A stretch of 43,333 nt of DNA from positions 1 through 43,333 of the forward strand of contig VXLT01000247.1 of assembly GCA_009841475.1 (NCBI GenBank). Reading direction: 5' to 3'. The position numbers and the translations under genes are program-made. The notes beneath the pieces are model-generated. The model had not been told where the DNA came from. It made no database searches and saw nothing but the letters and a program-made list of their open reading frames with translations. How positions within the stretch are numbered: the stretch's first letter is position 1; each line of letters starts with the position of its first letter. Below are positions 1 to 3,486 of the stretch, piece after piece. The stretch is from Gemmatimonadota bacterium (GTDB lineage Bacteria; Gemmatimonadota; Gemmatimonadetes; Longimicrobiales; Gaopeijiaceae).

Positions 1-81
1 CCCAGTCCTACCGCGCTTGCCCCTTGTCTCGCGGGCCCGGTTATGTGAATACGAGACCGGGCCGAACTCGCGAACCTGGCG

Positions 82-333
82 GTGAGCGCCGAGCGGCGTG
101 GCCGGGGGGCGGGGGAGGCGCTGCTTGCCCACGCACTGGACATTCTGCGCGAACGCGATGTCAGCTGGGTCTACCTGGCCGTGCGGGCCTCCAACACCCG
201 GGCGGCGGAACTGTATCGCCGCTTCGGCTTCCGGGAGATCGGCAGGCACCGTTCGTACTACGCCGAACCCCCTGAGGATGCCCTCGTCCTGGCGATGGAC
301 CTTACGCCCCGAGGCTGTTCCGGAGCCGGTTGA
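82..333 (+). CDS. RimI-like GNAT N-acetyltransferase, C-terminal part only
   Basis: This is the C-terminal half of a GNAT acetyltransferase of the RimI type, which acetylates the N-terminal alanine of ribosomal protein S18. The acetyl-CoA loop is visible as RRGRGAGEALL, followed by the RimI-like segments VRASNTRAAELYRRFGFREIG and EDALVLAMDL. Homology in this frame begins at about position 61 (AELANLAV), but an in-frame TGA at 46-48 closes the frame upstream. A GYV triplet that would fit the preceding family segment is in another frame (39-47). The spacing to AELANLAV is also several codons short, so a small deletion with frameshift is likely. The N-terminal half is either outside the window or lost. 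GTG at 82 is a formal start only. The 3' end overlaps the convergent minus-strand gene by 32 bases. Confidence 0.6.
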   Translation: MSAERRGRGAGEALLAHALDILRERDVSWVYLAVRASNTRAAELYRRFGFREIGRHRSYYAEPPEDALVLAMDLTPRGCSGAG

Positions 334-1174
334 GAAGAGCTCCCTGGTGCCGCTGCATCCGCTTCAGGGTCGGCGAGCCCGGTAGCCGCACCGCCTCGCG
401 GGCCAGTTCGGAAAACCGCAATGCCCCGTCCCGCACTGTGAAGAAGTCGCTGAACTCGTGCTCGGCGGCGGTGGCGAGCACCCTGGTGACGCGCGTGCGC
501 ATCTTCCGGCGGGCGGACGCCGTGGAAACGCTCCACGCGGGGTGCTCAGCGCAGATCTCCGCGATTTCCAGCCGCTGCTTCCCCCCGGTCGCACGTGCCA
601 CCACCCTGGGGATGATCGCCTGGGCGATCTCTGCCGGGTGCGACCCGTGATCGTAGGGGATCCAGCCCAGCGGACTCGAGTCCCAGTCCAGCGCCAGGAC
701 CGGACGGAAAGCGTTGGCCAGCCCCACCTTCGGGAACGGGTTGGCGTCGATGACGAGCCCCTCGCGGGTCCGAAGCAGCAGGGTGGGTCTGATCCTGCTC
801 TCGGCGATCCCGTCGCGCAGGCTCTCGCGGTGTTCTTCGAGTCCGAAGACCGCCACGCTGTACAACTCGGTCTGATCCTGGGTAAGCGGCGTCTCTTCGC
901 GCAGATGCACGGCGCTGACCTTCGAGTACCTGTCGAGATCAGCAAGATCAACCCGTTTTCCCGAAAAGACTTGCACGAATACAGAATGTCGGTATTCGGT
1001 GGACGCGAGGACCAGCACGGGATCTGCCGCCGCTCCGCTGCTCCCAAGTGCTGTTCCCGCGATCCAGCGGTCGCGATACCCCATCTGCCGAATCGTCCGG
1101 GGGAGGCCCGGCGACCCCCGGCACATCCCGATCAAGAGGTTGTAGACCGCGAGTCTATAGCTGGAATATCTCAC
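302..1174 (-). CDS. Unrecognised protein with C-terminal winged-helix-like region (cassette gene B)
   Basis: I do not recognise this family. The protein is 290 aa, soluble, with no signal peptide or membrane segment. A GTG start at 1174 is chosen because an AGGA sits about 6 bases upstream on the minus strand. This start overlaps the end of the upstream gene by 20 bases, so the two are translationally coupled. The N-terminal part has a strand-rich stretch, VFVQVFSGKRVDLADLDRY. It resembles the core of PD-(D/E)xK nuclease-fold proteins (usually hydrophobic-E-x-K-SG...L.RY), but the acidic and lysine positions are Q and F. If the fold is right, the site is degenerate. The last 110 residues (from QRLEIAEICAEHPAW) look like a winged helix rich in Arg. 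The conserved-looking motif DWDSSPLGW lies mid-protein. Both domain suggestions are inference. The 3' end overlaps the rimI remnant by 32 bases. Confidence 0.72.
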   Translation of the reverse strand: MRYSSYRLAVYNLLIGMCRGSPGLPRTIRQMGYRDRWIAGTALGSSGAAADPVLVLASTEYRHSVFVQVFSGKRVDLADLDRYSKVSAVHLREETPLTQDQTELYSVAVFGLEEHRESLRDGIAESRIRPTLLLRTREGLVIDANPFPKVGLANAFRPVLALDWDSSPLGWIPYDHGSHPAEIAQAIIPRVVARATGGKQRLEIAEICAEHPAWSVSTASARRKMRTRVTRVLATAAEHEFSDFFTVRDGALRFSELAREAVRLPGSPTLKRMQRHQGALLNRLRNSLGA

Positions 1175-2312
1175 ACTCGTCCTGGTCAAGCAGGCGCACC
1201 CGGGGATCCAGGTGGTGCTGAAGGTTCGTGTAGAAGCGCACGACGGTTCCGCCGGAGGTGTCTCTCGGCAGGAACAGCCTGATGAACTCCGGTGTGAACT
1301 CGAAAGCCAGTCCCTGGCCAAAGTTCAGGTCGACGGCCGCGACACTCACGCTGTCGGGGCCCCGCACCACCGGCATTCCCCAGAGCAGGAACGGATTCGC
1401 CGAGGAAAACACCATGCGGCAGAAGCGCTCCAGGTGCCGGATTGGACGGGTCAGGTGGAGGGTCAGCGACCTGCCGTGCAAAATCCCGTCACGTCCGTTC
1501 ATTCGTACGGCGTGGAGCGACTCGAGCCGTTGGACCTGGCGGGCATAGCACCCCTGAAGGGCGGCTGTCAGTTCAAGGTGGGCCTGGAGGGAGGTGCCAC
1601 GCGTGATGATTCGGCCGTCCCATCTCAGGTCGTCCAGGCAGAACACGCTGTCGTCTCCAGCGTCGGGCTGGTGCTTCACCTGTATGGTCGAAAGCGCGAT
1701 GCCTTCTTCGAGGGCCCCTGGGACGCGCACCAGCGACAACAGACGGCCGGCCCGGGTGCCCCAGATGCGCGCCTTCACGAAATCGGAGGCACCCCTGCCG
1801 GCGCCGGGCTCGAATACGCGGCGTTCCTGGCCAAGGGTCAGGGCGACGGTGGACCCCAGCGCGGCCGCATTCTCCAGGAACTCGCCGGGAAGGGCCGCAC
1901 GCCCCACACCACGCCGGGCCGCGGCCAGATTCGACACGAAACGGTCGGCCAGCCTGCTCATTGCGAACGTGTGGAGCAGCCAGTGTCGGGAATCCGCCCA
2001 GTCCACGTACACGAACGCGCGTTCGTCGTCCTGCGCGATTTCGATCGTTGCCAGATCGGGATCGTCGGCGGGATGCACCCGCGTCGAGTACATGCCACGC
2101 AGCACCGGGTCCGCGGCCATCTCGGCGAGCGTGACGAACGGACCCCGATGGTCGCCGGCTTTCGGCGGCACGGGTCCGCGCCCTTCCATCAGGTAGGTCT
2201 TGACCGGCACGGCCTCCCCGTTCCGCCGGGCATCGCCGGTCCCGTCCCGGGAAACGCGCCGGATCTGGCCCTCCAGAATGGCGGCCAGATGGCTGCGGCT
2301 GCGAGCGATCAT
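1155..2312 (-). CDS. Unrecognised 385-aa protein (cassette gene A)
   Basis: No known family could be assigned. The predicted protein is 385 aa and soluble, without signal peptide or membrane segments. It has an Arg-rich N-terminus (residues 1-35), then a long alpha/beta body with blocks such as GPFVTLAEMAADPVLRGMYS, FVYVDWADSRHW, DFVKARIWGTRAG and ANPFLLWGMPVVRG, and ends in DECEIFQL. The ATG at 2312 is the best start available. The open frame extends farther upstream but runs antisense into the galE-like gene and lacks protein character. Its last 20 bases overlap gene B, so the pair forms one transcription unit, probably driven from the divergent region at 2423-2469. Context is accessory: the pair sits between a damaged rimI and a housekeeping operon. 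Paired unknown genes of this kind are often defence or mobile-element cargo, but nothing in the sequence proves that. Confidence 0.72.
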   Translation of the reverse strand: MIARSRSHLAAILEGQIRRVSRDGTGDARRNGEAVPVKTYLMEGRGPVPPKAGDHRGPFVTLAEMAADPVLRGMYSTRVHPADDPDLATIEIAQDDERAFVYVDWADSRHWLLHTFAMSRLADRFVSNLAAARRGVGRAALPGEFLENAAALGSTVALTLGQERRVFEPGAGRGASDFVKARIWGTRAGRLLSLVRVPGALEEGIALSTIQVKHQPDAGDDSVFCLDDLRWDGRIITRGTSLQAHLELTAALQGCYARQVQRLESLHAVRMNGRDGILHGRSLTLHLTRPIRHLERFCRMVFSSANPFLLWGMPVVRGPDSVSVAAVDLNFGQGLAFEFTPEFIRLFLPRDTSGGTVVRFYTNLQHHLDPRVRLLDQDECEIFQL

Positions 2313-2390
2313 CTTGCGACGCTTACCCCTGTTCCCGTGACTGTTTCGCGCAACGTTCCGGGGCTGTACCCGGTTCCGGCGTCGGGTATC

Positions 2391-2411
2391 ACCTCGTGTC
2401 GTAGTTGGCCA
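2391..2411 (-). other. Possible 7-codon upstream ORF in the leader of cassette gene A
   Basis: On the minus strand a short frame ATG GCC AAC TAC GAC ACG AGG TGA (about 2411 down to 2388) encodes MANYDTR. It lies between the putative divergent promoter and the start of gene A. No clear ribosome binding site precedes it, so this is only a candidate leader peptide. Confidence 0.15.
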
Positions 2412-2422
2412 TCGTGTAGGCA

Positions 2423-2469
2423 GTATATGCCTTCCGCTACCCCGGCCGCCACTTTCCGTTAGCATATAC
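2423..2469. promoter_or_regulatory. Divergent promoter/operator region with perfect 8-bp inverted repeat
   Basis: GTATATGC (2423-2430) and GCATATAC (2462-2469) are perfect inverted copies separated by 31 bases. Each carries a -10-like hexamer pointing outward: TATACT on the minus strand (2427-2422) toward cassette genes A and B, and TATACA/TACAAT (2465-2472) toward the galE-like gene. A direct near-repeat lies between them (TTCCGCTA at 2432, TTCCGTTA at 2454). No good -35 hexamer is visible on either side. The symmetry suggests either two mirrored promoters or a dimeric regulator site controlling both directions. Confidence 0.45.
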
Positions 2470-2505
2470 AATGCGGAGGCAGACCACAGCAAAAGGGGGA
2501 CGGGC

Positions 2506-3486
2506 CTGAAGACCGATTCCGGCGATACGCGCAGGATTCTCGTCACGGGCGGCGCCGGCTTCGTCGGGAGCCACGTGGCCGACGCGCACCTCTCGCGGGG
2601 CGATCGCGTGTGGGTTATGGACGACCTCTCTTCGGGTCGGCTCGACAACGTTCCCGCCGGTGCCGAGTTCGTGGAGATGGACATCGCGGACCCTCGTGCC
2701 GCCCGGCTGATCCGGGATGTCGGCTTCGACCTGATCAACCACCACGCGGCCCAGATCGATGTTCGCGCGTCGGTCGCCGATCCCGTCGCGGACGCAAGGG
2801 TGAACATCGCGGGTCTCCTCAACGTGCTCGAGGCCTCGCGTGAATCCGGGACCCGGCGCTTCGTGTTCGTCTCCAGCGGCGGCGTGGTCTACGGCGAGCC
2901 GGAGACGTATCCCACCCCGGAGAACGCGCCCAAGCAACCCGTGTCCCCCTACGGGGTATCCAAGCTCTCTGGTGAAAGCTACCTCAACTACTATCGTGAA
3001 GTGCATGGCCTCGACTACGTGGCGCTGCGCTACGGCAACGTCTACGGTCCTCGGCAGGATCCGCACGGAGAAGCCGGGGTAGTGGCCATCTTTTGCAACC
3101 GCCTGATCGAGGGCAAGCCTCTGACCATCTACGGCGATGGCGAACAGGTGAGGGACTACGTGTACGTCGAAGACGTGGCGAGTGCCAACCTGATGGCATC
3201 GGAGATGGTGCTGGAGAAGCGTCCCGGGATGGACGCTCGTGCCTACAACGTGGGAACGCAGAACCCGACCAGCGTCAACACGCTGGCCACCCTCCTGGAA
3301 GAGATCGCTGGAGTGCACCGGGGCCGCGTGCATCGTGACGAACGTCCCGGCGATGTCCGCCGCAACACCCTCGACACGGCGCGGATTCGGGCGCTGGGGT
3401 GGGCGCCCGCGCACAACCTGCGCGAGGGGCTCACCCGCACTTTCCGACACATCGCGTCGTGCAGGGCGAAGGCGGGCGCAGCGTGA
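2506..3486 (+). CDS. galE: NAD-dependent epimerase/dehydratase, UDP-glucose 4-epimerase-like
   Basis: This is an extended short-chain dehydrogenase of the GalE type, acting on nucleotide sugars for envelope polysaccharide synthesis. The NAD-binding motif TGGAGFVGSH starts at about residue 14. The catalytic residues are SS at 123-124 and YxxxK with Y149 and K153 (YGVSK). The family segment NVYGPRQDPHGEAGVV follows. No ATG, GTG or TTG lies at a sensible place before the glycine motif. The first such codon, GTG at 2575, would delete the Rossmann motif. The best start is CTG at 2506, with an AGGGGG stretch about 7 bases upstream, giving MKTDSGDTRRILVTGG and a normal-length 326-aa protein. The tolQ gene begins at a GTGA overlap. 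The exact sugar substrate (UDP-Glc, UDP-GlcNAc, dTDP-sugar) cannot be read from sequence, so the symbol is approximate. Confidence 0.85.
   Translation: MKTDSGDTRRILVTGGAGFVGSHVADAHLSRGDRVWVMDDLSSGRLDNVPAGAEFVEMDIADPRAARLIRDVGFDLINHHAAQIDVRASVADPVADARVNIAGLLNVLEASRESGTRRFVFVSSGGVVYGEPETYPTPENAPKQPVSPYGVSKLSGESYLNYYREVHGLDYVALRYGNVYGPRQDPHGEAGVVAIFCNRLIEGKPLTIYGDGEQVRDYVYVEDVASANLMASEMVLEKRPGMDARAYNVGTQNPTSVNTLATLLEEIAGVHRGRVHRDERPGDVRRNTLDTARIRALGWAPAHNLREGLTRTFRHIASCRAKAGAA

Follow-up and report, generated by a model that had tools for sequence, protein, structure and literature searches.

An overlapping gene pair at a fixed site in a Gemmatimonadota genus, a putative restriction-like system in which the nuclease-type partner has lost its catalytic residues

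Gene pair and its chromosomal site

The analysed stretch of DNA (the window) was a whole contig of 43,333 nucleotides from a Gemmatimonadota bacterium, base 1 of the window being base 1 of the contig. Close to its start, two genes of the minus strand were found between rimI and galE. Gene A (1155..2312, ATG start, TAG stop) encodes a 385 aa protein with a predicted tandem TBP-like architecture (beta-alpha-beta4-alpha, twice). Gene B (302..1174, GTG start) encodes a 290 aa protein, in which a putative PD-(D/E)xK-type core (residues ~1-175) without the first acid and the Lys is followed by a winged-helix-like domain (residues ~180-255). The end of A and the start of B overlap by 20 bases (1155..1174), suggesting translational coupling, and both genes are oriented opposite to the surrounding rimI and galE-tolQRAB-pal, all of which lie on the plus strand. 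Neither protein of the window had a match in Pfam or PADLOC, while NCBIfam returned nothing for A and a single chance-level match for B (E 0.27). A PADLOC search with eight relatives of the pair gave only one weak, chance-like match (E 0.029). The preliminary description of two overlapping genes of no nameable family, running against the main strand, agrees with these coordinates and searches.

Since both frames are open in 11 other carriers of the genus and dN/dS lies at 0.11-0.26, A and B are real genes. Among close relatives the values were 0.11-0.22 for B, 0.13-0.26 for A and 0.12-0.16 for galE, with broadly similar dS for the three genes. In codon use, A and B resembled the remaining genes of the window least, although rimI and galE scored only slightly higher. 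No repeats suggesting a mobile element were found around the pair.

The left flank of the insertion site is the C-terminal part of rimI (GNAT acetyltransferase; 61..333, plus strand), cut by the contig start. Its homology begins at base 34 and includes one in-frame TGA at 46-48, less than 50 bases from the contig end. The rimI of the closest relative (L003) is likewise cut by a contig end, and the gene is intact where the contigs of relatives are longer (172 aa in L028). True damage and an assembly error look alike in such a fragment, and the damaged rimI of the preliminary description is unproven; because of its place at the contig end, it is also unusable as evidence for an accessory slot. 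The right flank is a galE-type NAD-dependent epimerase (2518..3486, plus strand), followed by tolQRAB-pal. The intergenic region between the divergent A and galE (2313..2517) holds AT-rich -10-like elements in both directions. The elements GTATATGC (2423-2430) and GCATATAC (2462-2469) together form an inverted repeat, and related AT-rich elements resembling -10 boxes were seen in relatives. Because of its place between the divergent promoters, the repeat was considered as an autoregulation operator and rejected: the elements align as -10-like boxes and give no evidence of an operator.

Within the genus, 12 of 23 genomes carry the pair. It adjoins galE wherever the contig shows this side, and its usual place is between rimI and galE. 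Of the 11 genomes without the pair, eight have rimI directly followed by galE, and all 11 possess the galE-tol operon. Further genes lie between B and rimI in two carriers. In their main groups, the A and B trees are concordant with those of the flanking genes, and the history in the genus fits one acquisition, perhaps one subclade loss, and vertical descent thereafter. Because the carriers share one site and the tree of the pair agrees with that of its flanking genes, the pair is not mobile within the genus. Mobility of the pair was thus not upheld here (12/12 carriers at one site, tracking the flanking-gene tree), while the proposal of an undescribed two-gene module was sustained.

No recognised defence neighbours were found at this site across the 12 carriers, with one possible exception (G008), the neighbours being housekeeping genes. 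In G008, a 483-aa protein that appears AlbA_2/Schlafen-like by eye lies beside B (L036 6668-8119). In G022 (L030 11122-13342), an SDR-type and an M20-peptidase-type gene, both assigned by eye, lie between B and rimI, the left border being variable.

A fixed, divergent position beside galE-tol in 12 genomes, purifying selection and AT-rich elements in the shared intergenic region would also suit a transcription regulator, acting on the pair itself or on the divergent galE-tol through the winged helix of B and/or a TBP-like saddle of A. However, conservation of B within the genus is lower in the winged-helix part than in the other half, the intergenic elements resemble ordinary -10 boxes, and the galE-tol operon does without the pair in those 11 genomes. 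We therefore consider a regulatory role in the genus unlikely.

Predicted fold of protein A

An AF2 model of A (pLDDT 66, pTM 0.72) was obtained from an input alignment of five rows, as was that of B, which limits both models. The order beta-alpha-beta4-alpha was seen at residues 37-132 and again at 282-367, separated by a poorly modelled stretch (residues ~150-222). In a VIA-align comparison with the PDB, the model matched CENP-N (Z 7.8), CENP-L/Iml3 (Z 6.0-6.4) and RnlA (Z 5.7-6.0), as well as many TBP entries (Z 5.4-6.2, rmsd 2.9-3.4, ~80-86 residues). Matches in BFVD included an Orpheovirus protein (E 2.6e-5) and, among weaker ones, viral TFIID/TBP proteins (at best E 8.7e-4); an RNaseLS-like phage protein was also matched. 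These matches are weak, none in the PDB exceeding Z 7.8 or reaching E <0.001 and the best in BFVD (E 2.6e-5) having low TM-scores. As the theme of the matches is consistent and the topology agrees, although the values are weak singly, a TBP-like fold is the best assignment for A, though not a proven one.

In its predicted element order, present twice, A resembles the TATA-binding protein and TBP-fold proteins such as the RNase HIII N-domain, CENP-N/CENP-L and Rep_trans/Rep-Arvir. It differs from them in having no sequence similarity, Z values of only ~5-8 and a long stretch between the repeats. In TBP and RNase HIII, domains with a TBP-like fold bind nucleic acid, and such domains are also present in relatives of RNase LS (PMC3710099).

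At the sequence level, comparison of the two halves of A by hhalign revealed no similarity, and an internal duplication was not detected in this way. PDB sequence searches with profiles of 14 and 26 members gave nothing credible. Eight residues are invariant over 26 A members (K38, R109, G233, H245, E264, G312, D328 and R359). The only Pfam family seen among these 26 was DUF7770, weakly and in two of them (best E 1e-4); in a follow-up of ten, the matching members were not found.

Loss of the catalytic motif in protein B

Outside the genus, every one of the 21 B relatives has an intact (D/E)...(D/E)xK motif, such as PDVVL...VDCKS (Halobacterium), PDVIL...FECKS (M. jannaschii) and PELIL...LEIKS (G079). 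In the genus, neither the first acid nor the Lys is found in any of the 12 B proteins, that of the window included. The catalytic signature is thus carried by the wider B family but not by the window's B, and the earlier impression of a PD-(D/E)xK core with replaced residues is borne out by the intact motif of the relatives. G079 (L037), of the same order, has an intact motif, and both the A and the B tree place it beside the genus; the loss in the genus is therefore derived, and probably occurred as a single event.

Motif and alignment are what point to B as a relative of the PD-(D/E)xK superfamily: outside the genus, two predicted beta strands carry the (D/E)...(D/E)xK residues, and a conserved (Q)xxxY stretch comes after them. 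Unlike known members, B has no sequence match to Pfam families of this kind or to solved structures, is paired with a TBP-like protein and has no methylase of its own, and in the genus it lacks the catalytic acid and lysine. Among 26 B members, Pfam matches were limited to DUF7609 or PH_21, in single proteins. The N-terminal core of the AF2 model (pLDDT ~33-54) is too poor for an alpha-beta-beta-beta-alpha-beta fold, as in the superfamily, to be judged, and a fold search with this model gave no significant or credible PDB match in the core. Structure-based comparison of the two proteins thus yielded a weak TBP-like answer for A and no significant match for the B core. For residues 180-254 the model shows the order H-E-H-H-E-E (block pLDDT ~60-82), as expected from the winged-helix-like C-terminus noticed earlier, and weak matches to winged-helix chains were obtained (Z 4-6.4). 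The C-terminal domain of B is a probable winged helix.

Of 51 positions of B that are invariant in the genus, 42 fall within the first 180 residues, the dead core. With a dN/dS near that of galE, B is maintained, and the invariant positions place this maintenance chiefly in its former nuclease core. The lost catalytic residues and the patchy presence (12/23 genomes) might suggest that the pair is a decaying, functionless remnant in the genus, but open frames in 12/12 genomes and dN/dS values of both genes close to that of galE make this disfavoured explanation very improbable.

Distribution and pairing across lineages

Sampling covered 589 genomes, namely 98 relatives, 194 Halobacteria and 297 Actinomycetes. 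Among these, B never occurred without A, and A occurred without B only once, as a remnant. A and B were found in the identical 13 genomes of the relatives (12 of the genus and G079 of another family), in the identical 13 genomes of Halobacteria and in the identical four of Actinomycetes. The co-occurrence looked for on the basis of the preliminary description is therefore complete, at 30/30 genomes with intact genes. A fifth Actinomycete genome carries a fragment of A only; this lone C-terminal piece (L072, G486:C684, 2165-2569) is remnant-like.

A profile search over 298 genomes of the phylum confined A to the window's genus. By tblastn of plasmid records, A was detected in Lysinibacillus irui, Halobacterium hubeiense, Methanocaldococcus jannaschii and Metabacillus, with B adjacent each time; further hosts, from a genome scan, were Natronocalculus, Halonotius, Haladaptatus and Micromonospora. 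Such a wide and patchy distribution indicates transfer between phyla. A constant locus in all relatives, which the preliminary description had set against an undescribed system, is found within the genus but does not extend across phyla. A viral origin of the pair was considered and rejected: no relative of A was located in phage records or in viral_contigs, where one match gave no distinct locus.

A and B always lie on one strand and mostly overlap. A precedes B in 30 loci but follows it in three Actinomycetes, so that the pair, not the order, is kept. The A and B trees have 23 of 29 splits in common.

An overlapping two-gene operon, obligate pairing and presence on plasmids could also describe a type II-like toxin-antitoxin module, with B as nuclease toxin and A as neutraliser; in the genus the toxin would be dead, with A persisting alongside it. 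The resemblance of A to the N-terminal domains of the RnlA toxin and the RNaseLS-like phage protein among the BFVD matches point the same way. Both proteins are, however, large (~290-440 aa) compared with typical antitoxins, neither a stand-alone B nor an intact stand-alone A was found, and a clade-wide dead toxin at dN/dS ~0.15 is unexpected for a decaying module of this type. One close comparison is the E. coli RnlA-RnlB (RNase LS) anti-phage toxin-antitoxin, likewise a two-gene operon linked to defence and, through RnlA, among the structural matches of A. TBP-like N-terminal domains have been described in some members of the RNase LS family (PMC3710099). In contrast to RnlA-RnlB, the nuclease motif of A-B is of a different kind and lies on the partner protein. 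Pfam comparison of 26 members each of A and B returned neither HEPN nor RnlB. Taken as a whole, a toxin-antitoxin function seems improbable.

Defence genes near the pair outside the genus

Neighbours of the pair were compared with PADLOC models (E <=1e-10) at 14 loci of Halobacteria and Actinomycetes. The 100 neighbours matched 267 models and 96 controls elsewhere on the same replicons matched 27, figures that count models, not proteins, and include two near-duplicate loci of Halobacteria. Clearly identified defence proteins were present in about six of the 14 loci, while the matches of the controls were mostly to Cas12f/TnpB-like, CARF and cysteine desulfurase-type models. The neighbourhood of A-B outside the genus is thus enriched in defence genes, as the proposal of a defence module had anticipated, but that of the window's own site is not.

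Type I restriction-modification genes adjoin the pair in L069 and L082, a HmaB-like methylase and a PLD/SNF2 helicase in L076, and an HKD+Snf2 helicase and a type IIG-like enzyme in L080, to which L081 is nearly identical. In L083, the neighbour is a type IV GmrSD-like enzyme. In M. jannaschii, genes for HsdR, an ATP-dependent endonuclease and a VapC toxin are found close to the pair. Several Halobacteria and Actinomycetes have A-B directly beside type I restriction-modification and DISARM/BREX-like helicase systems; unlike these, A-B has no methylase, helicase or ATPase, and it adjoins them without being a known part.

Among initiators, Rep_trans and Rep-Arvir contain TBP-like folds. The Rep-Arvir proteins combine a TBP-like fold with a winged helix (PMC13107129), and the pair lies on plasmids of Lysinibacillus, Metabacillus, Halobacterium and M. 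jannaschii, so that a role in replication, partition or maintenance of plasmids or mobile elements, with chromosomes reached secondarily, was weighed as well. Many copies are nevertheless chromosomal, some of them beside type I restriction-modification or PLD/SNF2 helicase genes, no match to DUF7845 or Rep_trans was obtained, and viral contigs and phage records yielded no located relative. This explanation is disfavoured and appears quite improbable.

Proposed function

We give somewhat better than even chances to the explanation that A and B each supply one subunit of a putative, undescribed nuclease system, restriction-like or directed against mobile elements, which is present in the genus as a fixed, non-cleaving derivative. 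In most lineages, B would act as a nuclease of PD-(D/E)xK type that ends in a winged helix. A, as a tandem TBP-like protein, would provide recognition, probably by binding the target nucleic acid in a complex with B. In the window's genus, the pair probably goes back to a single acquisition, at the chromosomal site flanked by rimI and galE; there the catalytic residues of B were lost, yet purifying selection on both genes continued. As B of the genus is without the usual active site, the pair should act by binding, or by an unrecognised activity of A, and the version in the window most likely works as a complex that does not cleave but binds to nucleic acid or to a partner. Pairing, loss of the catalytic residues, selection, the fixed site and the defence-rich surroundings in other lineages are directly shown by the data, while a complex of A and B, binding of nucleic acid by A, nuclease activity of intact B proteins and a role in defence are inferred.

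A bolder form of this proposal is a new, widespread two-protein immunity of bacteria and archaea, in which TBP-like A selects and PD-(D/E)xK B cuts, and which one genus has turned into a permanent, non-cutting chromosomal silencer or roadblock. We grant this form only a modest chance of being right.

The literature searched contained no description of the pair or of the genes in M. jannaschii. Both folds are known singly, and their combination in A and B is new in the searched libraries and literature. If the restriction-like explanation is true, a two-gene system without annotation has escaped notice in hosts ranging from M. jannaschii to Bacilli. The dead-nuclease clade would then naturally separate binding from cutting, and its comparison with intact pairs would reveal the target of A. 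To our knowledge, TBP-like folds have rarely been described in bacterial defence proteins, the relatives of RNase LS being one case, and A would broaden this picture.

Near the pair in Halobacteria, two large proteins of 1103 aa (L078 3360-6668) and 716 aa (L075 4812-6959) matched no PADLOC model at E 1e-40; by eye, the 716-aa protein resembles an OLD-like ATPase.
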